Shown here piece after piece: positions 535-23,253 of a stretch of DNA of 27,846 nt; the first letter of the stretch is position 1, and each line of letters begins with the position of its first letter. The DNA is from a virus, in IMG/VR virus record IMGVR_UViG_3300022169_000022, positions 1 to 27,846 of that record, one strand, 5' to 3'. Made by a program: the position numbers and the translations under genes. The notes beneath the pieces were generated by a model. The model worked only from the letters and a program-made list of their open reading frames with translations, made no database searches and was not told the origin of the DNA.

Positions 535-2979
535 ATGCTGCAATTAATAGCAAAAAACCAAATTAACCAGAAGCAAATTTATTTGGATGTTGATTCTGAG
601 GAGGATATTTCTTTGGATTTTGCCGTAAGCGAGGTTAAAGACTTTAGCAGCAGGCAATCAAGCAGGAGTAACTCATTTACTTTACCTTTTACAGACACAA
701 ATAATACTTTTTTTAATCATTTCTATGATGTTAATTTAAGTAACTATGAATATGATTCTGGTACTTTGCAAGACGTTCAGATTTCATTTGATGCCTACAA
801 AAAAACAGATTGTGAAATACTGGTTGACGGTCTTACGCAATTGCAAGGCTACTTGTATATTGAAAGTGTTAATTTAGTTAGCCAAAATTATAGTGTTGTC
901 GTTATCGGTGAAATAGGTAATTTAAAAGATGAACTGGGCGAAAAGAAATTAGTAAATTTAGATGATGCTTGGCAAACTACATTCGCCCACGCATTAACCA
1001 AAAGTAATATCGTTAACAGTTGGGATGACAACATAACTTATTTAACAAGTGGAGCTGACCAAAGCGTTATTAAATACCCTTTTGTGAACTATGGAATAGA
1101 TAACAAAGGTTGGACTATTGGAGGAGCAAATTTAAACGACATAACAACATCTGACGGTGCGATTCAGCCTTATGAATTTAAGCCAGCGATGAAGGTTAAA
1201 ACCATATTAGACAGGATACTTTTGGAGGCAGGGTACACCTACGACTCTAATTTTCTTGATAATAATGATTTTAATTTTTCTGACATTTATATGACTTTGG
1301 CAAACAATACTGAAGTTGTAAAATATAGACCAAATGTAGAGGGCTTTCTTGCTAACCTTTCTGGAAACCAAAGCATAGGAAGCCCATTAAATGACGAAAC
1401 AATTCAATTTTTTACTGAAGTTTACGACCCATCTTCAAATTTTTCACCAGCCAACAACAGTTTTAGAGCCCCTGCAAACGGCACATATGGATTCAGAACA
1501 AAACTACTTTTAGAGTTTACAAGACAAATAGATTCAACGCAAGCAATTTATTCTGTTGAAGTTTATATTAATACTTTACAAGTAGCAACTTTAGGAAGTA
1601 GTTCAATCCAGCCGTCAGCCATTGGAAGCAAATTAATAGAAGTTTTTGAAGGCAGCATCCGTTTAAACTTAAACCAGAATGATGACGTTAGAATAAAAAT
1701 CAATGTTGATGTTGTAACCAATCAAGACGTTTCAGCTTTTTTTATTTTACAAACAGATAGCGGACAATATTCAGAGTTTCAGTTGACAGAACAGCCAGAC
1801 CTTGCAAACAATAGTAATATATATCTACAAGACAACTGGGCCACCATAAACCAAATAAACTATTTGAAGGCAATATTTGAGCATTTTAATATGTTTATAG
1901 AACCAAAGCAAGATGACCCAACACAGCTCATTATTGAGCCTTATCCTGATTATATGGACAGGGGAATAAGTTTAGATTGGACAGACAAATTAAATTTAAA
2001 GAAGGAAGTACAGCTAAATACAACATCTTCATTTCGTAAATCAAAATTAGAATGGAAATGGTCACCCGATAAAAACTATTTGGCAAAGTACAGGCAAGAC
2101 ATAAGTTTAAAAAATTATGGTTCATATGTTTATGAAGACCAAAGCGACTTGACTTCTGGTAAGTTTACCAATTTCACAGAATTTGGAGAGCCTACAAACA
2201 GGCTTATAAATACAAGCGGAACAACACAGGCGTTCAACATTTGCGTTATGGATTTAACAGCAAGGGATTCAAATGCTGGAATCGTTCCGTTAAAAGGGAA
2301 ACCCAGAATTGCCTACTTTAAAAAGAAAAGTAATGGTGCAGGCAACCAAATAAAAATGTACAACGAAGCTACAGATGTAGTTGACAACTCTAACAACTAT
2401 GGCTACTATGGCCATTATTCAGATGTACGTTCAGATTCATCGACCTACAATCTAAATTTTAGCGAAACTTATTCTGGCATCTATGATTTTAGCAACTGGG
2501 TTAGTGAAGGAAGCAACCTAAATCCTTTCAAGCAGTATTGGAATAGATACCTAAACGAGATATACAGCCCAGAAGCAAGAATATTAAAAGCCTCATTTAA
2601 TTTGACACCTTTAGACATCCACAATTTAAGATTTAATAATAAGATTTTCGTTAAGGATTGCTTTTATAGGATTAACAAAATAAGTGGCTATAAACCAAAT
2701 AATACTGAGCCTTGTCAAGTTGAATTAATTAAGATTTTTGAAAGTAATGAAGGACTTGGCAATAAATGTAGATTAGTACCAACCTCCTTTGATTTAAGTG
2801 GTGTTGTTAACTTTACTAATCCAGACACAGGAACAGCAGGAGAGGCCAGCAGAGATTGTTGTGAAGCATATGGCTATATTTATATTGGAGGAGATACTCC
2901 GCAATGTTTATGGAAGCCATTAAGCACAGACAACGGAAGCCCATTTTTAACCGAAGGTGTAAGCTCACCAGAAGGATAA
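535..2979 (+). CDS. Large tail/baseplate protein (814 aa)
   Basis: This is the largest gene in the window. Its N-terminus (about residues 25-60) has the motif SSRQSSRSNSFTLPFTDTNN, seen in many Bacteroidota phage and prophage tail proteins, followed by the block in which a small domain is displaced and scaled. The middle is rich in beta-prone sequence. Near the C-terminus is a KQYWNRYLNEIYSPEARI segment, then FVKDCFYRINKISGY, then a short cysteine-rich tail (CCEAYGY and a later QCLW). The start is fixed by TAGATG with the preceding gene. A role as the tail-tip or baseplate protein that carries the fibres is inferred from size, position before the tape measure, and family pattern. I see no enzymatic motif in it. 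Confidence 0.75.
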   Translation: MLQLIAKNQINQKQIYLDVDSEEDISLDFAVSEVKDFSSRQSSRSNSFTLPFTDTNNTFFNHFYDVNLSNYEYDSGTLQDVQISFDAYKKTDCEILVDGLTQLQGYLYIESVNLVSQNYSVVVIGEIGNLKDELGEKKLVNLDDAWQTTFAHALTKSNIVNSWDDNITYLTSGADQSVIKYPFVNYGIDNKGWTIGGANLNDITTSDGAIQPYEFKPAMKVKTILDRILLEAGYTYDSNFLDNNDFNFSDIYMTLANNTEVVKYRPNVEGFLANLSGNQSIGSPLNDETIQFFTEVYDPSSNFSPANNSFRAPANGTYGFRTKLLLEFTRQIDSTQAIYSVEVYINTLQVATLGSSSIQPSAIGSKLIEVFEGSIRLNLNQNDDVRIKINVDVVTNQDVSAFFILQTDSGQYSEFQLTEQPDLANNSNIYLQDNWATINQINYLKAIFEHFNMFIEPKQDDPTQLIIEPYPDYMDRGISLDWTDKLNLKKEVQLNTTSSFRKSKLEWKWSPDKNYLAKYRQDISLKNYGSYVYEDQSDLTSGKFTNFTEFGEPTNRLINTSGTTQAFNICVMDLTARDSNAGIVPLKGKPRIAYFKKKSNGAGNQIKMYNEATDVVDNSNNYGYYGHYSDVRSDSSTYNLNFSETYSGIYDFSNWVSEGSNLNPFKQYWNRYLNEIYSPEARILKASFNLTPLDIHNLRFNNKIFVKDCFYRINKISGYKPNNTEPCQVELIKIFESNEGLGNKCRLVPTSFDLSGVVNFTNPDTGTAGEASRDCCEAYGYIYIGGDTPQCLWKPLSTDNGSPFLTEGVSSPEG

Positions 2980-3006
2980 ACAAAATAAATAAAAAACAAA
3001 AAAACG

Positions 3007-3150
3007 ATGATAAGCGAAACTTTGGCACTATTAAGCAAGATGAAAAAAACACCTAAAAAGAGCAGCGATTTTATGAAGTTTGCAATGGGCGAATACTATT
3101 TGCCGTTTTCGTTTAAGGATATGTTCCGACATTTAAAAAAGAAAGTGTAA
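3007..3150 (+). CDS. Small 47-aa protein upstream of the tape measure
   Basis: A short ORF starts at ATG 3007 and ends with a TAA that overlaps the ATG of the tape measure gene by one base (TAATG). The product is basic and mixed: a Lys-rich N-terminal half (KKTPKKSS) and a C-terminal half with GEYYLPFSFKDMF. The tight overlap, the fit of the frame between two real genes and the balanced amino-acid composition support it as a gene. Function is unknown. Its place between the baseplate-like protein and the tape measure suggests a small tail-assembly partner, but no motif shows this. Confidence 0.6.
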   Translation: MISETLALLSKMKKTPKKSSDFMKFAMGEYYLPFSFKDMFRHLKKKV

Positions 3151-5416: not shown

Positions 5417-6019
5417 ATGGAAAATTCAATTAAATTAAGTGCTATAAAAAGCAATCCAAATAATCCAAGAGTAATAAAAGATGACAAGTTCAAAAAGCTG
5501 GTTCAATCAATAAAGGAATTTCCTAAAATGATGGAGCTTAGGCCAATGGTCTTAAATTCCGACAGTATCGTATTAGGTGGCAATATGCGTTTAAAGGCTT
5601 TAAAAGAGTTGGGCTATAAAGAAGTGCCTATTGAATGGGTTAAGCGAGCAGACGATTTAACAGAGGATGAAGCGAGGCGATTTATTATAGCTGACAATGT
5701 TGGCTTTGGTGAACACGATTGGGAATTGTTAACTAATGAATGGAATGTTGAAGAATTGGAAGGCTGGGGATTGGATAACTGGCAGAATATGGATGATATT
5801 GATACAAGCGATGATTTTAGTTTGCCTGATGGAGATAAAGAACCTTTCCAGCAGCAAACATATACTTTAGCAGATGCACAGGCTATTGAAATTAAAAACG
5901 CAATAGCAAACGTTAAAAAGACTGACGAGTATAAATATATGGAAACTTTTGAAAACGAAAACAGTAATGGCAACGCACTTTATTTAATTATTACGCAATG
6001 GGCAGAGCAAAAGAGATAA
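5417..6019 (+). CDS. ParB-domain protein
   Basis: The N-terminal 100 residues carry a ParB/sulfiredoxin-like domain: NPNNPR near 13-18, a VLNSDSIVLGGNMRLKALKELG stretch near 45-66 whose GGNMRLKAL is the variant of the ParB GG-H-R box, and a following acidic helix (LTEDEARRFI) with IADN. The C-terminal half, after about residue 105, is acidic and low in known motifs. ParB-domain proteins bind or load on DNA, and some are nucleases or CTP-dependent clamps; the exact role here is not visible. The gene overlaps the Mom-like gene by 22 bases, which suggests joint expression and perhaps joint function in DNA modification or packaging. Confidence 0.82.
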   Translation: MENSIKLSAIKSNPNNPRVIKDDKFKKLVQSIKEFPKMMELRPMVLNSDSIVLGGNMRLKALKELGYKEVPIEWVKRADDLTEDEARRFIIADNVGFGEHDWELLTNEWNVEELEGWGLDNWQNMDDIDTSDDFSLPDGDKEPFQQQTYTLADAQAIEIKNAIANVKKTDEYKYMETFENENSNGNALYLIITQWAEQKR

Positions 6020-6738
6020 TTGTTAAAGTTATAAATTCAAAGGTTGCTAATGATTTTGTAAAAAAAACTCATTATAGCGGAAAGGTTGTTCCTAATAGTA
6101 CTTTACATTTTGGTTGTTTTTTAGATGACAAGTTACACGGAGTTATGCAATATGGACCAAGTATAAACAAAAAAGGAACTATTAATTTAGTAGAGAATAC
6201 AGGTTGGAATGAATTTATAGAATTAAACAGAATGGCTTTTGATGATTACCTGCCAAAGTATTCTGAAAGTAGATGTATAGCTATTAGCATTCGTTTAATT
6301 AAAAAGAATGCTCCACAAATAAAATGGATAATAAGTTTTGCAGACGGAACACAATGTGGTGATGGTACTATATATAGAGCAAGTGGATTTAAATTAGTTG
6401 GTGTTTCTAAAAATGCTGGAATATGCAAATTAAATAATGAAGTTGTACATATAAAAAGAACTTACGATTTAGGTTTGACAAGTAGTTTTTTAAAAAAAAG
6501 TGATATTCCTAAATTAGAAAAACAAGGATATAAAGTTGAAATGTTAAAAGGTTATCAATTAAAGTATGTTTATTTAATAAACAAAAGTATGACCATAACT
6601 AAAGAGATACTTCCTTTTAGCGAAATAGATAAACAAGGTGCAGGAATGTATAAAGGAGAAAAAATAACCCTCCAAGATAGGAGGGCTAATTTGAGCGATG
6701 AGGTCGACTTGAACGCCAATTCTAAGCTGGAAGCTTAG
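5998..6738 (+). CDS. Mom-like DNA-modification protein (adenine carbamoylmethylation family)
   Basis: The 246-residue protein fits the Mom family. Phage Mu Mom, a GNAT-fold protein, converts adenines in DNA to N6-carbamoylmethyl-adenine and so blocks restriction enzymes. Visible matches are HYSGKVVPNSTLHFGCF (25-41), GVMQYGPSIN (48-57), IELNRMAFDD (74-83), SESRCIAISIRLIKKNAP (89-106) and IISFADGTQCGDGTIYRASGF (111-131), then GYQLKYVYL and an ILPF..I...GAGMYKG block near the end. The last 20 or so residues overlap an antisense tRNA-Gly and are probably not conserved. Base composition looks more AT-rich than the neighbours (6481-6540 has 12 G/C in 60). I infer anti-restriction; the chemistry has to be shown. 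Confidence 0.82.
   Translation: MGRAKEIIVKVINSKVANDFVKKTHYSGKVVPNSTLHFGCFLDDKLHGVMQYGPSINKKGTINLVENTGWNEFIELNRMAFDDYLPKYSESRCIAISIRLIKKNAPQIKWIISFADGTQCGDGTIYRASGFKLVGVSKNAGICKLNNEVVHIKRTYDLGLTSSFLKKSDIPKLEKQGYKVEMLKGYQLKYVYLINKSMTITKEILPFSEIDKQGAGMYKGEKITLQDRRANLSDEVDLNANSKLEA
6658..6685 (-). terminator. Terminator of the tRNA-Gly unit, minus strand
   Basis: On the minus strand a stem CCCTCC, loop of six bases, GGAGGG (plus-strand arms 6668-6673 and 6680-6685) is followed at once by TTATTTTTT. It lies 8 bases past the tRNA 3' end. This is a standard intrinsic terminator and it closes the minus-strand unit. It sits inside the 3' end of the Mom-like gene. Confidence 0.8.
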
Positions 6739-6764
6739 CGTGTAACCAATAACACTTCCATCGC
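6694..6764 (-). tRNA. tRNA-Gly (anticodon TCC)
   Basis: Read on the minus strand, the sequence folds as a tRNA. The acceptor stem is 7/7 (GCGATGG with TCATCGC, one G-U), the D stem is 4/4 (GTGT/ACAC) with GG in the loop, and the anticodon stem is 5/5 (CTAAG/CTTAG) with loop CTTCCAG, giving T33, anticodon TCC at 6729-6731 and A37. The T loop is canonical, GTTCAAGTC. The discriminator base is U, as in bacterial glycine tRNAs. The CCA end is not encoded. Weak points are a short variable loop and two mismatches in the T stem, so it may be degenerate. It would read GGA codons. It overlaps the end of the Mom-like gene by 45 bases on the other strand. Confidence 0.82.
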
Positions 6765-16132: not shown

Positions 16133-16178
16133 TTGTACGGATACTTGTACGGATACTTGTACGGATAATTGTACATAC
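16133..16178 (+). repeat. Three tandem 12-bp repeats plus a partial fourth
   Basis: The unit TTGTACGGATAC repeats at 16133-16144 and 16145-16156, and as TTGTACGGATAA at 16157-16168; a shorter TTGTACATAC follows at 16169-16178. Each unit holds the palindrome GTAC. They lie 2 bases after the last late gene and upstream of a terminator and promoter boxes. Repeats of this kind may be protein-binding sites (an operator or an origin iteron). They are not CRISPR-like, as they have no spacers. Confidence 0.85.
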
Positions 16179-16919: not shown

Positions 16920-17492
16920 ATGAAAAAAGAGAAAAGCGTTTTCGAAACATTGAACGAAATCAATGTAAATGCAAAGGCCGAAAAGAAAAACGGCTTAACC
17001 TATTTAAGCTGGGCTTGGGCTTGGTCAGAGGTTAAAAAACACTACCCAGATTCAACTTACCTTGTGTATGAAAATGCTGACGGTTTAAACTACCATCACG
17101 ACCAGCAGACTGCTTGGGTAAAGACAGGCGTAACCATAGGAGGAATTGAACATATTGAATATTTGCCTGTGCTGGATTACCGGAACAAAAGCATAGCGAT
17201 TGATAGTCTAACCTCTTTCAATGTTAACACAAGCATACAGCGAAGTTTAACAAAGGCAATTGCTCGACACGGTTTAGGCTTATACATATACGCAGGCGAA
17301 GATTTACCACAAGCTGACAAAGTAGAACCTACTTTGGTTAAGCTGGAAGTTGACGATGCTAACTGGGCAAAAGTTCTGAAATACATTGATGCCAATAAGC
17401 AACTTGGATTAACTGAAATTACAAAGAGGCTTTCAGCAAAATACCTTATAGAAAAGGAAACTACATCAGCCATTAAATTCTTATTGAAATGA
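16920..17492 (+). CDS. Sak3-type single-strand annealing protein (DUF1071)
   Basis: The 190-residue protein has the DUF1071/Sak3 marks: YLSWAWAWSEVKKHYPD near 28-44, a central VTIGG..HIEYLPVLD, and SFNVNTSIQRSLTKAIARHG near 99-118 continuing LGLYIYAGEDLP. These proteins anneal single strands during recombination, as RecT/Beta do. The gene overlaps the downstream exonuclease by four bases, as expected for a recombinase-exonuclease pair. I rate the family call as strong. Confidence 0.88.
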   Translation: MKKEKSVFETLNEINVNAKAEKKNGLTYLSWAWAWSEVKKHYPDSTYLVYENADGLNYHHDQQTAWVKTGVTIGGIEHIEYLPVLDYRNKSIAIDSLTSFNVNTSIQRSLTKAIARHGLGLYIYAGEDLPQADKVEPTLVKLEVDDANWAKVLKYIDANKQLGLTEITKRLSAKYLIEKETTSAIKFLLK

Positions 17493-18223
17493 GCGAAGTA
17501 ATAGAAAGACTTAGAGATGATTCAGAATACTATGGGGCGTTTGGTCAGCAATACCTAAGCAATAGCAACATATCAGCTCTTTTAAATAATCCAAAGATGT
17601 TTGGAGTTAGACAACCTGATAATAAAGCATTCGCCTTCGGGCGTTTGTTTCATCAGCTTATTCTTGAACCAGAAAAAGCGTCTGCATTTAAGTTTGTTGA
17701 TATTAAAACACGGACAAGCAAAGCCTACAAGGAAGCTGTTGAAGATAGCGGAGAAGATTTTCTGCTCCTGAAAAAAGAGGTGGAATGGGCTGAATATTTA
17801 GCTGACACGGTTGTAAGCAACATAGAATTATACGATATGATTTACGCTGAAGGCAACGAATTTGAGAGGCCTGGAGTCACAAAAATTCAAGGGATACCGT
17901 TCAAGGGTAAAGCTGACATCGTAACCAATACCCACATTCTTGACCTTAAAACAACTGGTGACATCAGCAAGTTTAAATGGTCAGCGAAGAACTACAACTA
18001 CGATTCACAGGCTTACGTTTACGGCTTGCTATTTAATAGGCCTATGGTTTTCATAGTCATTGATAAAACTACACGGCAAATGGGCGTTTACAGAGCAACT
18101 GATTCATTTGTTGAATCAGGAAAGGAAAAGGTAGAGCGGGCTTTGAAAGTTTACAATAAATTCTTTAGCAAACAAGCCACAGAAAGTGTAGACAATTATT
18201 TTATAGAACAAAATTTATATTAA
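17489..18223 (+). CDS. PD-(D/E)XK exonuclease partner of the annealing protein
   Basis: The 244-residue protein has an early GRLFHQLILEP (51-61) typical of RecE/Cas4-like (DUF3799-type) nucleases, then the catalytic core GKADIV (140-145) with Asp143, ILDLKTT (150-156) with the D-x-K pair, and YDSQAYVYG (171-179). It would resect one strand of DNA ends and hand the ssDNA to the annealing protein. The 4-base overlap with the annealing gene supports their pairing. Confidence 0.86.
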   Translation: MSEVIERLRDDSEYYGAFGQQYLSNSNISALLNNPKMFGVRQPDNKAFAFGRLFHQLILEPEKASAFKFVDIKTRTSKAYKEAVEDSGEDFLLLKKEVEWAEYLADTVVSNIELYDMIYAEGNEFERPGVTKIQGIPFKGKADIVTNTHILDLKTTGDISKFKWSAKNYNYDSQAYVYGLLFNRPMVFIVIDKTTRQMGVYRATDSFVESGKEKVERALKVYNKFFSKQATESVDNYFIEQNLY

Positions 18224-18227
18224 AAAG

Positions 18228-18698
18228 ATGAAGATAAAAGAGATTGAAAGATTAATGGATTATACTGAAAATGAAATATATAATCTAAAAGAACAAATGC
18301 AGGATTTACGTTTAAAATTACGTTTGGAATTGCGAAATGAAATAGATGAATTAATGGAGCTGGACAAAGCCAACTTTAATATAAAGGAACTGGTCTTGTT
18401 TATATCTAAGTTTCAGGACATAGACATAACTGAAGTTAATCGCAAGCAAGAATACGTTTGGGCAAGACAAGTCTATTGCTTTATAGCTAAAGAAAACGGA
18501 AAAGAAAGTCTTTTAAATATAGGCAAAGCTATTAATCGTGACCATTCAACTGTAATATACAACATCAAAAAGCACAAGCAATTGGCAGAATTTGATTATG
18601 AATACAAGGCTTTTGCTGGCAAGATTATTAACCATTTTAATTACAATTATGTTAAACAAAATAAAGAACAAGAAGCAGCAGAACAGGAAGCTGTATGA
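18228..18698 (+). CDS. Protein with a DnaA-type DNA-binding domain (domain IV only)
   Basis: The last half has the DnaA C-terminal signature: WARQVYCFIAKENGKESLLNIGKAINRDHSTVIYNI (about 78-113), where GKAINRDHSTVIYNIKKH is the helix-turn-helix that reads DnaA boxes. The first half is a coiled-coil-rich section (LMDYTENEIYNLKEQMQDL), with no AAA+ ATPase domain. A DNA-binding subunit that brings origin or regulatory sites to a host or phage replisome is plausible. The domain itself is clear; its function on this phage is inferred. Confidence 0.85.
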   Translation: MKIKEIERLMDYTENEIYNLKEQMQDLRLKLRLELRNEIDELMELDKANFNIKELVLFISKFQDIDITEVNRKQEYVWARQVYCFIAKENGKESLLNIGKAINRDHSTVIYNIKKHKQLAEFDYEYKAFAGKIINHFNYNYVKQNKEQEAAEQEAV

Positions 18699-18791: not shown

Positions 18792-19085
18792 ATGGCAACT
18801 TTAGGAACAACCTATTTAAAATTAAAGACAGCGAAAGAAATAGTCGCTAATTTAGAAAAAGAAAAAGCAAATGGTATTGCTTTAACATTCGCAATAAGCG
18901 ATGAAGAAAACCAGTTCAACCAAAACGTATCAATGTATATTGAGCAAACGAAAGAACAAAGGGAAGCAAAGGAAAAGAGGCAATACGTTATGAACGGAAA
19001 GGTCTTTTGGACAGATGGCAAGGTTAACGCCATAAAAAACCAGAAGCAAATAAATGAGGAAAAAGGGGATAATTTACCATTTTAA
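18792..19085 (+). CDS. SSB-like protein (97 aa), provisional
   Basis: The protein ends GDNLPF, which matches the acidic C-terminal tip (D-x-L/I-P-F) that bacterial and phage SSB proteins use to recruit partners. The middle has NVSMYIEQTKEQREAKEKRQY and VFWTDGKV, a pattern I recall from short SSB-like proteins of Bacteroidota phages. It lacks the length and typical OB-fold motifs of standard SSB (about 170 residues), so it may be a diverged or reduced form. It follows the recombinase and DnaA-like genes. I rate the function as likely but not proven. Confidence 0.55.
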   Translation: MATLGTTYLKLKTAKEIVANLEKEKANGIALTFAISDEENQFNQNVSMYIEQTKEQREAKEKRQYVMNGKVFWTDGKVNAIKNQKQINEEKGDNLPF

Positions 19086-19205: not shown

Positions 19206-19862
19206 ATGGCAACAGATAAAAAGGGATTCATATTATACGCTGACCAGCATAACCTATTTAAAAAGCTACCTAATGAAAAGGCTGGCGAACTCATAAAGCA
19301 TATTTTTAGTTACGTTAACGACGAAAACCCAGAAGCAGAGGACTTACTTATAGAAATAGCTTTTGAGCCTATTAAAATGCAGCTAAAAAGGGATTTAGAA
19401 AAGTTTCAAGAATCCAAAGCACAAAGAAGCCAGGCTGGAAAAAGGTCAGCAGCGTTAAGAAAAATTCAACGAGATGCAACGGTCGTTGATTCCGTTGAAA
19501 ATATTTCAACGAATCCAACAGTAATAGATAAAGTAAAAGTAAATGTAAAAGATAAAGTAAAAGTAAAAGTAAATGTAATAAGTATAGAGGAGCGAAAAGC
19601 GGAGTTTATCAACTCCTTGCACCCTTTTATTTCAGATAATTCATCTACTTTATTAAAAGATTTTGCAAGCTACTGGACAGAACACGGTTTAAAAGATAAA
19701 AAAATGCGTTTTGAAAAGCAAACGTCTTTCGATATAAACCGAAGGCTTGCAACTTGGAAGCGTAACGAAACTAAATTCGGAACACCACAAGATAAAAAAG
19801 ATAAGACTAAGCAAACCTTTATAAATTTACAAAACAAACTAAATAGCGACCAATGGAACTAA
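19206..19862 (+). CDS. Replication-associated protein (DUF6291-like, 218 aa)
   Basis: The N-terminus FILYADQHNLFKKLPNEKAG (8-27) with LIKHIFSYVNDENPE (29-43) is the pattern I recall for the DUF6291 domain, often found in Bacteroidota phage replication genes. The middle carries DKVKVNVKDKVKVKVNV (about 108-124), coded by direct DNA repeats. The C-terminal part is basic with WTEHGLKDKKMRFEKQTSFDI and RLATWKRNE. It likely binds DNA or loads a helicase, comparable to lambda O or phage replisome organisers. That role is inferred from context. Confidence 0.68.
   Translation: MATDKKGFILYADQHNLFKKLPNEKAGELIKHIFSYVNDENPEAEDLLIEIAFEPIKMQLKRDLEKFQESKAQRSQAGKRSAALRKIQRDATVVDSVENISTNPTVIDKVKVNVKDKVKVKVNVISIEERKAEFINSLHPFISDNSSTLLKDFASYWTEHGLKDKKMRFEKQTSFDINRRLATWKRNETKFGTPQDKKDKTKQTFINLQNKLNSDQWN
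19527..19578 (+). repeat. Direct repeats inside the replication-associated gene
   Basis: GATAAAGTAAAAGTAAA occurs at 19527-19543 and recurs with one extra GTAAAA unit from 19551, both ending ATGTAA (to 19578). The unit GTAAAA recurs throughout. The repeats code for the Lys/Val/Asn-rich stretch. Repeats inside a replication gene can be an origin, as in lambda O, so this is a candidate origin. Confidence 0.75.
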
Positions 19863-20536
19863 TTAAAAAGACGGAGCAAAAGGAAGTAAAGAGCCTGATT
19901 TTAGAATTAATTTATTTCTATATGAAAAGCGTGGGCCAGTCAAACGCTGATGAAGAAATAGTAAATATTACCTTTTTAGAATTTTCTGATTACATTTTAA
20001 AAAAGTGTAAATCTTATACACCCGATGAACTTCGTGAAGGGTTAAGATACGGAAGAGATAATGACGAGCAGCAGGGTGGAGGAATACACGCCCAGCGTTT
20101 AATTTTTTGGATGAAAAAATACCACAAAGACGTTTGGGTTAAAAGACACGCCACTTCAATAGCAAATGGAAAGTTCTTTGGAGATAAAGAGCCGAAACAA
20201 ATCGCAGCTTCAAAAGAAGTTTCCCTTTCATTTATAAAAGACCAACAAAAAAAATATAAGAAAAAGGAATTTGCTTTGCTTGCAGTATGTTATGAAACCC
20301 TCAAAAATATGGGCCACTTTAAAGTTAATAATGAAGAAAAATGGGCAATAGTCGAAAGGGCAAAAGAATCTATAATTAGGCAACAAAATGAGTTGCAAGA
20401 CATATACAAGTACAAGAAGGCGAAGAACGAAATGGAGGCTGTTATAATCGGTGAACAATCGACTGTGACCAGCAGAGTAAAAGCAGAATGTCATAGAATA
20501 ATGGTTGCTGATTTATTTAAAAATACAGAATTTTAA
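19853..20536 (+). CDS. Probable replication partner protein (227 aa), unknown
   Basis: It overlaps the replication-associated gene by ten bases. The product is helix-rich: LEFSDYILKKCKSYTPDELREGLRYG (about 44-69), a GGGIHAQRLIFWMKKYHKD segment (74-92), and a Lys-rich linker and C-terminus with REALKES-like helical sequence. I see no Walker motifs. The arrangement, an organiser followed by a helical partner, resembles helicase-loader pairs of other phages, but no motif proves it. Confidence 0.6.
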   Translation: MELIKKTEQKEVKSLILELIYFYMKSVGQSNADEEIVNITFLEFSDYILKKCKSYTPDELREGLRYGRDNDEQQGGGIHAQRLIFWMKKYHKDVWVKRHATSIANGKFFGDKEPKQIAASKEVSLSFIKDQQKKYKKKEFALLAVCYETLKNMGHFKVNNEEKWAIVERAKESIIRQQNELQDIYKYKKAKNEMEAVIIGEQSTVTSRVKAECHRIMVADLFKNTEF

Positions 20537-22429: not shown

Positions 22430-22762
22430 ATGAAGGTAAACATACCATTAAAACCATTATCGGTTAATGTCGCTTGGAAGGGTAGACGCTTTAAAAGTGA
22501 ACTGTATAAAAACTGGATTGAAGACGGTTTATTTCTGTTGCAAAAGCAGGAGGTGAACGACTCAGAACAACTCCAATTAAATATTGAGTTTGGATTCTCT
22601 TCAAAAGGCTCAGACATTGACAACCCTATTAAACCCTTATTAGATTTAATCACGAAAAAGTACGGAATTAATGATAATCGCTTTTACAAATTGTACATTA
22701 AAAAAAAGGTGGTAAAAAAAGGGAAAGAGTATATCAAGTTTGAAATCAAGGAACTACTTTGA
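22430..22762 (+). CDS. RusA-like Holliday junction resolvase
   Basis: The 110-residue protein has the RusA core SSKGSDIDNPIKPLLDLI (57-74) with Asp62, Asp64 and Asp72, and then GINDNRFYKLYIKKKVV (79-95) with Asp82. These acidic residues bind metal and cut four-way junctions. Length and order fit RusA. It would resolve recombination intermediates before packaging. A four-base overlap links it to the sigma factor gene. Confidence 0.85.
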   Translation: MKVNIPLKPLSVNVAWKGRRFKSELYKNWIEDGLFLLQKQEVNDSEQLQLNIEFGFSSKGSDIDNPIKPLLDLITKKYGINDNRFYKLYIKKKVVKKGKEYIKFEIKELL

Positions 22763-23253
22763 AAACGATTACTGAAATAGCGAATAAAAACGATTCATAC
22801 TTTCGCTCTATGGCCTTACATATTTGTAAGCATAAAAGCGATGCTGATGACTTGGTTCAGGATATGTACTTGAAGTTGTACAGATATGATAAAGTGAAGC
22901 TGGATGATATGCACAAGAACGGAGTTTCAAAATTCCTATGCGTTCGTATTATAAACCAACTATTTCTGGACAGCAAAAGGAAAAACAAAAAGGAGTTTTT
23001 CTATCATTTCCTTGAGGATTTCGGTGAAGATGTTGACGCTTTAGAACGACAGGAAAAAGCTGACCACATTAGATATTTTATGGAAAAGCTGTACTGGTTT
23101 GACAGCAGGCTATTTGATGAGTATGTAAGCTCAGAAATGACAATGCGAGGATTAAGCAAAGCGACAGGTATTAATTTAAGGTCAATCTTTAATGCGATAA
23201 CCAGAGCAAAAACAGAATTACAAAAACTAAAGAAACATAAAGCACTTGAATAA
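22759..23253 (+). CDS. RNA polymerase sigma factor, ECF-like
   Basis: The 164-residue protein has a region-2 pattern (SYFRSMALHICKHKSDADDLVQDMYLKL, about 13-40, with the D-A-D-D-L-V-Q-D core-binding signature) followed by FLCVRIINQLFLD, and a region 4 helix-turn-helix near 128-155 (MTMRGLSKATGINLRSIFNAI). The start is TTG at 22759 in an overlap with the RusA stop; the first ATG in frame would cut region 2, so TTG is chosen. A phage sigma factor would send host RNA polymerase to phage promoters, probably late genes. Confidence 0.86.
   Translation: MKTITEIANKNDSYFRSMALHICKHKSDADDLVQDMYLKLYRYDKVKLDDMHKNGVSKFLCVRIINQLFLDSKRKNKKEFFYHFLEDFGEDVDALERQEKADHIRYFMEKLYWFDSRLFDEYVSSEMTMRGLSKATGINLRSIFNAITRAKTELQKLKKHKALE

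Follow-up and report, generated by a model that had tools for sequence, protein, structure and literature searches.

Which role may be played in a phage by a protein that carries the DNA-binding domain of DnaA and lacks the AAA+ module? This question is raised by a small gene of the viral record IMGVR_UViG_3300022169_000022, of which we analysed positions 1 to 27,846 (27,846 nucleotides, hereafter the window). The coordinates and the strand given for this gene in the original prediction agreed exactly with the ORF call, and the gene and its surroundings are summarised in Table 1.

Table 1. Positions of the DnaA-like gene, its structural parts and its surroundings in the window
Feature	Position	Strand	Details and basis
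Tandem 12-bp repeat TTGTACGGATAC x3.5, candidate binding site only	16133..16174		Ahead of early gene run
Sak single-strand annealing protein, in gene run with the DnaA-like gene	16920..17492	+	PF06378 E 6e-44
RecE/exonuclease VIII-type nuclease	17489..18223	+	DUF3799 E 3.7e-21, phrog_412 E 7.4e-31
Domain-IV-only DnaA-like gene	18228..18698	+	ATG at 18228, stop ends 18698, 156 aa; PF08299; structural match with 1j1v and 3pvp
N-terminal helix, residues 2-48, predicted coiled coil	18231..18371	+	AlphaFold helix; heptad test
Fold of DnaA domain IV (approximately residues 51-122), including HTH and RDHST signature	18378..18593	+	Pfam, 1j1v alignment, AlphaFold, Foldseek
C-terminal helix, residues 124-155	18597..18692	+	AlphaFold
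97-aa protein, SSB-like C-terminal tip DNLPF (by eye)	18792..19085	+	ORF call
DUF6291 protein, possible replication organiser	19206..19862	+	PF19808 E 3e-22; phrog_6451 primosomal E 4.5e-5
227-aa protein, unassigned	19853..20536	+	Occupies slot of DnaB helicase in L016

A DnaA domain IV without an AAA+ module

When the 156-aa protein was compared with Pfam, Bac_DnaA_C (PF08299) was the only family above its cut-off (E 1.3e-13, 51.2 bits vs. a cut-off of 31.5, residues 55-115). An HTH_38 match was located inside the same region and remained below the HTH_38 cut-off. The motif GKAINRDHSTVIYNI corresponds to residues 99-113 of the protein. Thus, the presence of a DnaA domain IV signature, as originally claimed, was borne out by the Pfam match, and the AlphaFold model also matches DnaA domain IV. 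The same applies to the claim that the AAA+ module is absent, since neither the 156-aa ORF nor the whole record gave a match to the AAA+ domain of DnaA (PF00308) at an E-value limit of 0.001. The DnaA equivalog of NCBIfam (TIGR00362) was matched at columns 332-435 of 437 only. With a score of 52.8 bits (cut-off 343.9) and with the AAA+ domain III (PF00308) missing, an identity as whole DnaA was rejected.

For structural modeling, 36 sequences (window and locus proteins) were used as AlphaFold input. The model of the 156-aa protein (mean pLDDT 92.3, pTM 0.72) involves predicted helices at residues 2-48, 52-63, 74-90, 95-101, 106-122, and 124-155. Foldseek superimposed this model on E. coli DnaA domain IV (1j1v_A, E 3.2e-4, TM 0.82, rmsd 1.8) and on the M. 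tuberculosis domain (3pvp_A, TM 0.83, rmsd 1.7), with both TM values being target-normalised and both solved structures being DNA complexes. 1j1v, a DnaA chain, was also among the best solved relatives at the sequence level (E 6.9e-5). The original prediction would have been refuted by a structure prediction without a DnaA fold; the model recovered this fold for both bacterial species. Taken together, these data indicate that the protein is a DnaA domain IV without an AAA+ module and that this likeness is far above chance.

The front half of the protein had been described as coiled-coil-like. Here, we found that a single helix of 47 residues precedes domain IV and that its heptad periodicity was equalled by 22 of 5000 shuffles. 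The coiled-coil-like character was therefore retained, but the helix covers the first third of the protein and not its half. It probably pairs two copies of the protein.

In the alignment with 1j1v, R399, R407, K415, D433, H434, and T436 correspond to R72, R80, K88, D105, H106, and T108, respectively, and the position of T435 is occupied by S107. For this comparison, we presume the residue numbering of E. coli DnaA and the DNA-contact roles of these residues. R72 (R399) and H106 (H434) are invariant over the 36 aligned sequences, and R80 (R407) and D105 (D433) were found in at least 90% of them. The mean column identity of this alignment is 16%. This conservation is partly built in, because the loci were retrieved by two motifs from the conserved stretch. 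The alignment also includes one near-identical pair, formed by the window and its sibling L002. Apart from the serine in place of T435, the residues for base and phosphate contacts of domain IV are kept, as would be required of a protein that binds DnaA boxes.

Relatives in phages and gene neighbourhood

Alignment-based scanning of viral contigs gave 165 matching stretches, from which 78 loci were confirmed. The ORFs of these loci were read mechanically and 77 of the 78 comprise 101-211 aa. The exception, L052 (292 aa), looks like a mechanical over-extension and for this reason it was left out of the alignment (A3) and of the neighbour scans. Together with the window, the 78 loci formed 36 clusters at 80% identity, and all 36 members of the alignment match PF08299 at E 0.01. 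The AAA+ domain of DnaA (PF00308, E 0.001) was detected in none of the 35 records searched, some of which are fragments. A DnaB-type match was obtained in 17 of these 35 records (above the cut-off in 11 of them), and the window record gave none. A comparison with the viral structure library yielded 42 matches with E-values of at most 0.001, several of which are labelled 'DnaA C-terminal'.

Considering the 78 loci, the lack of AAA+ domains in all 35 records, and the 42 structure matches, proteins with domain IV alone form an established type in phages. A search for such proteins in related phages had been suggested, and they turned out to be present in many phage groups. With this recurrence, the finding does not stand as a rarity. 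The window protein belongs to this type, with PF08299 above the cut-off, a short chain, no AAA+ domain, and a tailed-phage-like record that has TerL relatives. As a representative of this type, the window gene is ordinary, and named phages already bear DnaA-type annotations on such proteins. A domain fusion was seen in L013 (5674-6288), where DUF4406, which also matches a nucleoside deoxyribosyltransferase family, is joined to DnaA domain IV.

When the window protein was used as tblastn query, 27 of 50,697 named-phage records were matched. Among these were three fecal records labelled 'Bacteriophage sp.' (L005, L006, L007), in which the match is bacterial DnaA. Since each of them carries a full-length DnaA of 460-471 aa, they look bacterial and were dropped from the loci. 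In bacterial genomes, 33 stretches were matched and none was confirmed with a query that is sensitive to close relatives only. The plasmid search yielded three weak matches.

From Table 1, it can be seen that the DnaA-like gene lies in a run of plus-strand genes. The RecE-type gene overlaps the Sak gene by 4 bases and ends 4-5 bases upstream of the DnaA-like gene. Of the recombination and SSB-like neighbours named in the original prediction, the recombination genes (Sak, RecE-type) were recovered. The SSB-likeness did not hold up to the same degree, as it is weak and confined to the C-terminal tip of the 97-aa protein, which we take to resemble the C-terminus of SSB. In Pfam, PHROGs, and NCBIfam, no family reached an E-value below 0.004 with this protein. 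Further downstream, the DUF6291 protein has a BLAST relative in L016 that directly precedes a DnaB helicase gene. In both L016 and L017, a protein made of an N-terminal stretch and domain IV is encoded in a run with a DUF6291-cluster gene and DnaB. With Sak and a RecE-type exonuclease upstream, the gene context favours a function in DNA metabolism.

Over the 36 clusters, nine have a RecE-type exonuclease at position -1 or -2, 11 have a gene for a large terminase at positions +2 to +4, and seven have both; these counts are lower bounds since many contigs are short. The neighbouring genes were picked mechanically, and those of about 200 bases or shorter were dropped before the Pfam and PHROGs scans. 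In these scans, exonuclease VIII/DUF3799 accounted for nine of the 59 upstream neighbours. The 63 downstream neighbours included six large terminases, three DEAD-type helicases, two DUF3127 proteins, and two DUF6291 proteins. At some other clusters, DnaB helicase, PolA, primase/helicase, DUF3127, DUF6291, or SSB-type neighbours were present. In the window record, the terminase is located about 10 kb from the DnaA-like gene.

Several other features of these records are worth listing. A sigma-70/ECF-like small protein is encoded at 22759-23253 of the window and its BLAST cluster was found in 10 of the 36 domain-IV clusters. A Mom-type DNA modification protein (5998-6738, PF25680 E 1.3e-48) is preceded by a ParB-N-like ORF (5417-6019, E 1.5e-5, just below the Pfam cut-off), and a minus-strand tRNA-Gly was called at 6693-6764, where it overlaps the Mom-type gene at its end. 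In the sibling L002, the 12-bp repeat is separated from the early gene run by two additional ORFs (2475-3070) that the window lacks.

DnaA boxes and repeat arrays

The original prediction had proposed that the protein could recruit the host replication machinery to DnaA-box-like sites or compete with host DnaA. When we counted the motif TTWTNCACA, the window contained a single site (5.0 expected). The 36 cluster representatives contained 24 boxes (51 expected), and 84 boxes were found in 26 records (153 expected). These 26 records (the window and 25 others, some of them fragments) were taken from the 35, leaving out eight records under 20 kb and G030 (114 kb); for G005 and G013, the first 20,000 bases were scanned. 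None of the 26 records contained three boxes within 500 bp. Thus, clusters of DnaA boxes as the place of recruitment were not recovered, and as target of the protein they are rejected for the scanned records. Consequently, the annotation name 'replication initiator' finds no support in the scanned sequences.

For comparison, boxes were counted in five named phages, which form a small and imperfect control: lillamy9-3 (6 found, 9.6 expected), FPSV-S2 (8 and 17.4), phi46:1 (1 and 4.1), Danklef_2 (7 and 9.9), and P12024L (4 and 5.4). Danklef_2, which was fetched as a control, itself carries a copy of the domain. A six-frame search for PF08299 gave no match in lillamy9-3, and in FPSV-S2 only a sub-threshold match that is interrupted by a stop. 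The absence of the domain from lillamy9-3 is uncertain, because the same kind of search missed a 'DnaA C-terminal domain' protein that the viral structure library holds for the control P12024L. A rarity equal to that of the DnaA box was reached by 14 of 300 permuted motifs (4.7%). Since lillamy9-3 and FPSV-S2, which lack a clear domain copy, share the scarcity of boxes, this scarcity does not support a competition with host DnaA, and for such a competition no positive evidence was obtained.

The tandem 12-bp repeat of the window recurs in the sibling L002 with 2.7 copies. In G012 (the record of L029), nine copies of a AGTACACATT-type site are present in a single intergenic stretch (364-676), compared with at most five in 20 shuffles. 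A large ORF downstream of this array looks VirE-type primase-like by eye, and the stretch is possibly a phage origin or control region. Seven arrays (window, G012, G014, G017, G005, G032, G025) of the 26 records were compared and their sequences are unrelated. These arrays were hand-picked and their consensus units were defined by eye; weaker arrays of G003, G004, G009, G011, G016, and G023 (5-6 copies) and the G027 repeat were omitted. The resemblance of the seven arrays to DnaA boxes was at chance when compared with shuffled repeats (P 0.32). The arrays of G012 and the window looked suggestive by eye, but over all seven, an interpretation of iteron arrays as DnaA-box variants was rejected.

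In most of the 26 records, no array stands out. The phage phi46:1 also contains arrays, and weak ones are present in lillamy9-3, FPSV-S2, Danklef_2, and P12024L. Nearby replication-type genes, which were read by eye, may account for some of the arrays. Short tandem arrays with steps of about 17-19 bp were seen in non-coding DNA of L083 (9911-10010) and L105 (17670-17740), and their sequences are unrelated. Footprinting of nine loci of the L016 group, which show two different continuations, revealed by eye no repeated site 3' of the gene. Between 16000 and 21000 of the window, the sigma-70-like sites (15 vs. 17.7) were not above chance and the terminator-like sites (5 vs. 2.3) were slightly above it. 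For TANNTTTG, 53 sites were counted vs. 45.

Possible roles and known systems

From the domain IV fold, the absence of the AAA+ module, the kept DNA-contact residues, and the gene context, all of which were obtained by computation, we tentatively infer an ATPase-free site-binding protein, probably dimeric, that would serve the replication/recombination operon of the phage. This reading comes close to an even chance without reaching it. The pairing helix would bring together two copies of a small ATPase-free DNA-binding protein built on domain IV. The dimer would most likely recognise a specific site, or a small number of them, in the phage's own DNA, and in its bound state it may help to assemble the replication/recombination complex, perhaps in contact with the DUF6291 protein and its neighbour. 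DNA melting or remodelling in the manner of DnaA is not expected, because the protein has no AAA+ module. Of the replication role originally predicted, the context of recombination and probably replication genes stood, and a recruitment site at DnaA-box clusters was not supported.

Several points speak against the replication/recombination reading: no DnaA-box cluster was found in the window or the 25 other scanned records, the seven arrays resemble DnaA boxes at chance level and most records show no outstanding array, the conservation is partly built in, and the terminase at +2 to +4 in 11 of the 36 clusters also fits a transcription regulator of the early-to-late switch. Such a regulator, in which the coiled-coil domain IV dimer would repress or activate like any common HTH protein and play no part at an origin, is the main rival, and we consider it unlikely. 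Seven of the 11 clusters with terminase also have the RecE-type gene at -1 or -2, and Pfam identified six large terminases among the +1/+2 neighbours; L015 is also an example. The slot shortly upstream of the terminase often holds late regulators, and a probably dimeric HTH protein without ATPase has a regulator-like layout. However, the window gene lies within a recombination/replication run remote from the terminase, a separate sigma-like gene is present, and no shared operator was found. That RecE-type genes (in 9 of 36 clusters) and large terminases (in 11 of 36) are linked to the gene might also suit an accessory factor that marks pac/cos or recombination sites. This role appears improbable to us since no such site was found and terminase linkage is missing in the window and in 25 of the 36 clusters, some of which are on short contigs.

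Binding of the protein to DnaA boxes of the host origin, by which host DnaA would be blocked or redirected, is suggested by the kept box-contact residues and by the low box number of the phage records. We give little credence to this host interference, since lillamy9-3 (no detected domain) and FPSV-S2 show the same scarcity, permuted motifs were equally rare in 14 of 300 cases, and the neighbouring genes are unlike a host-takeover set. The loss of the AAA+ and N-terminal parts of DnaA could be expected from a functionless, degenerate remnant of a captured dnaA. Open frames and conserved contact residues in 36 mostly divergent sequences, as well as an intact and 99% identical copy in the sibling record, make this origin highly implausible.

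If domain IV alone serves phages, the site-recognition half of DnaA can function without the half that is driven by ATP, and a test would give a role to a recurrent phage gene that is sometimes annotated as replication protein. In a bolder scenario, which we regard as quite unlikely, a widespread phage family would act as motor-free dimeric master binder that recognises a new site other than the DnaA box and times the transition from recombination-dependent replication to packaging. This scenario would explain the gene position between exonuclease and terminase genes in many phages. As there are many relatives, a single binding experiment would be widely useful.

Among the listed matches in the open-licence literature, titles and abstract openings did not report an experiment on a phage domain-IV-only protein, and the word DnaA is absent from the main text of PMC10783043 and PMC8008677. 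For protein families of inoviruses, Bac_DnaA_C has served as an HTH probe together with two others (PMC6813254), and the annotation 'DnaA-like replication initiator' is given for a podophage (PMC3853050). According to PMC6006769, TnpAREP transposases of subclass 2.1 carry a C-terminal Bac_DnaA_C-like domain and their flanking repeats are unlike the DnaA-box consensus. As in the window protein, domain IV is found here outside DnaA, but it is part of a HuH nuclease. YfdR of the cryptic prophage CPS-53, as described in an excerpt of PMC4776307, binds domains I-II of DnaA and affects DnaA-dependent initiation. It is phage-derived like the window protein, but this excerpt names no DnaA-type DNA-binding domain for YfdR.

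Closer counterparts are encoded by phages of Bacteroidota: Harreka_1 (Olleya, gp24, 145 aa), snusmum9-1 (Muminvirus, gp028, 112 aa), phi46:1 (Cellulophaga, gp40, 170 aa), and Danklef_2 (Polaribacter, gp41, 148 aa). Like the window protein, these four are short and encoded amid non-structural genes, and they are annotated as 'DnaA protein', 'putative DnaA protein', or 'bacterial DnaA helix-turn-helix protein'. As in the window, no PF00308 AAA+ domain was detected in the Harreka_1 record or in that of snusmum6-1, which is closely related to snusmum9-1. Over the matched part, identity to the window protein amounts to 38.5% for Harreka_1 and 31-32% for Muminvirus. However, the gene neighbours of the four proteins differ from those of the window, and the PF08299 score is below the cut-off in phi46:1 and snusmum6-1, whereas it is above it in the window protein. 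Two PHROGs families, phrog_27829 ('DnaA-like replication initiation protein') and phrog_30669 ('replication initiation protein'), match two and three of the 36 members, respectively, at E 0.01; for the window protein, phrog_27829 gave E 0.064 and phrog_30669 was not among the matches listed. With E. coli DnaA domain IV (1j1v) and the DNA-binding domain of M. tuberculosis DnaA (3pvp), the window protein has the fold and the contact residues in common. Full DnaA has AAA+ and N-terminal domains in addition, whereas the window protein has a helix in front of domain IV instead and a serine at the position of T435.
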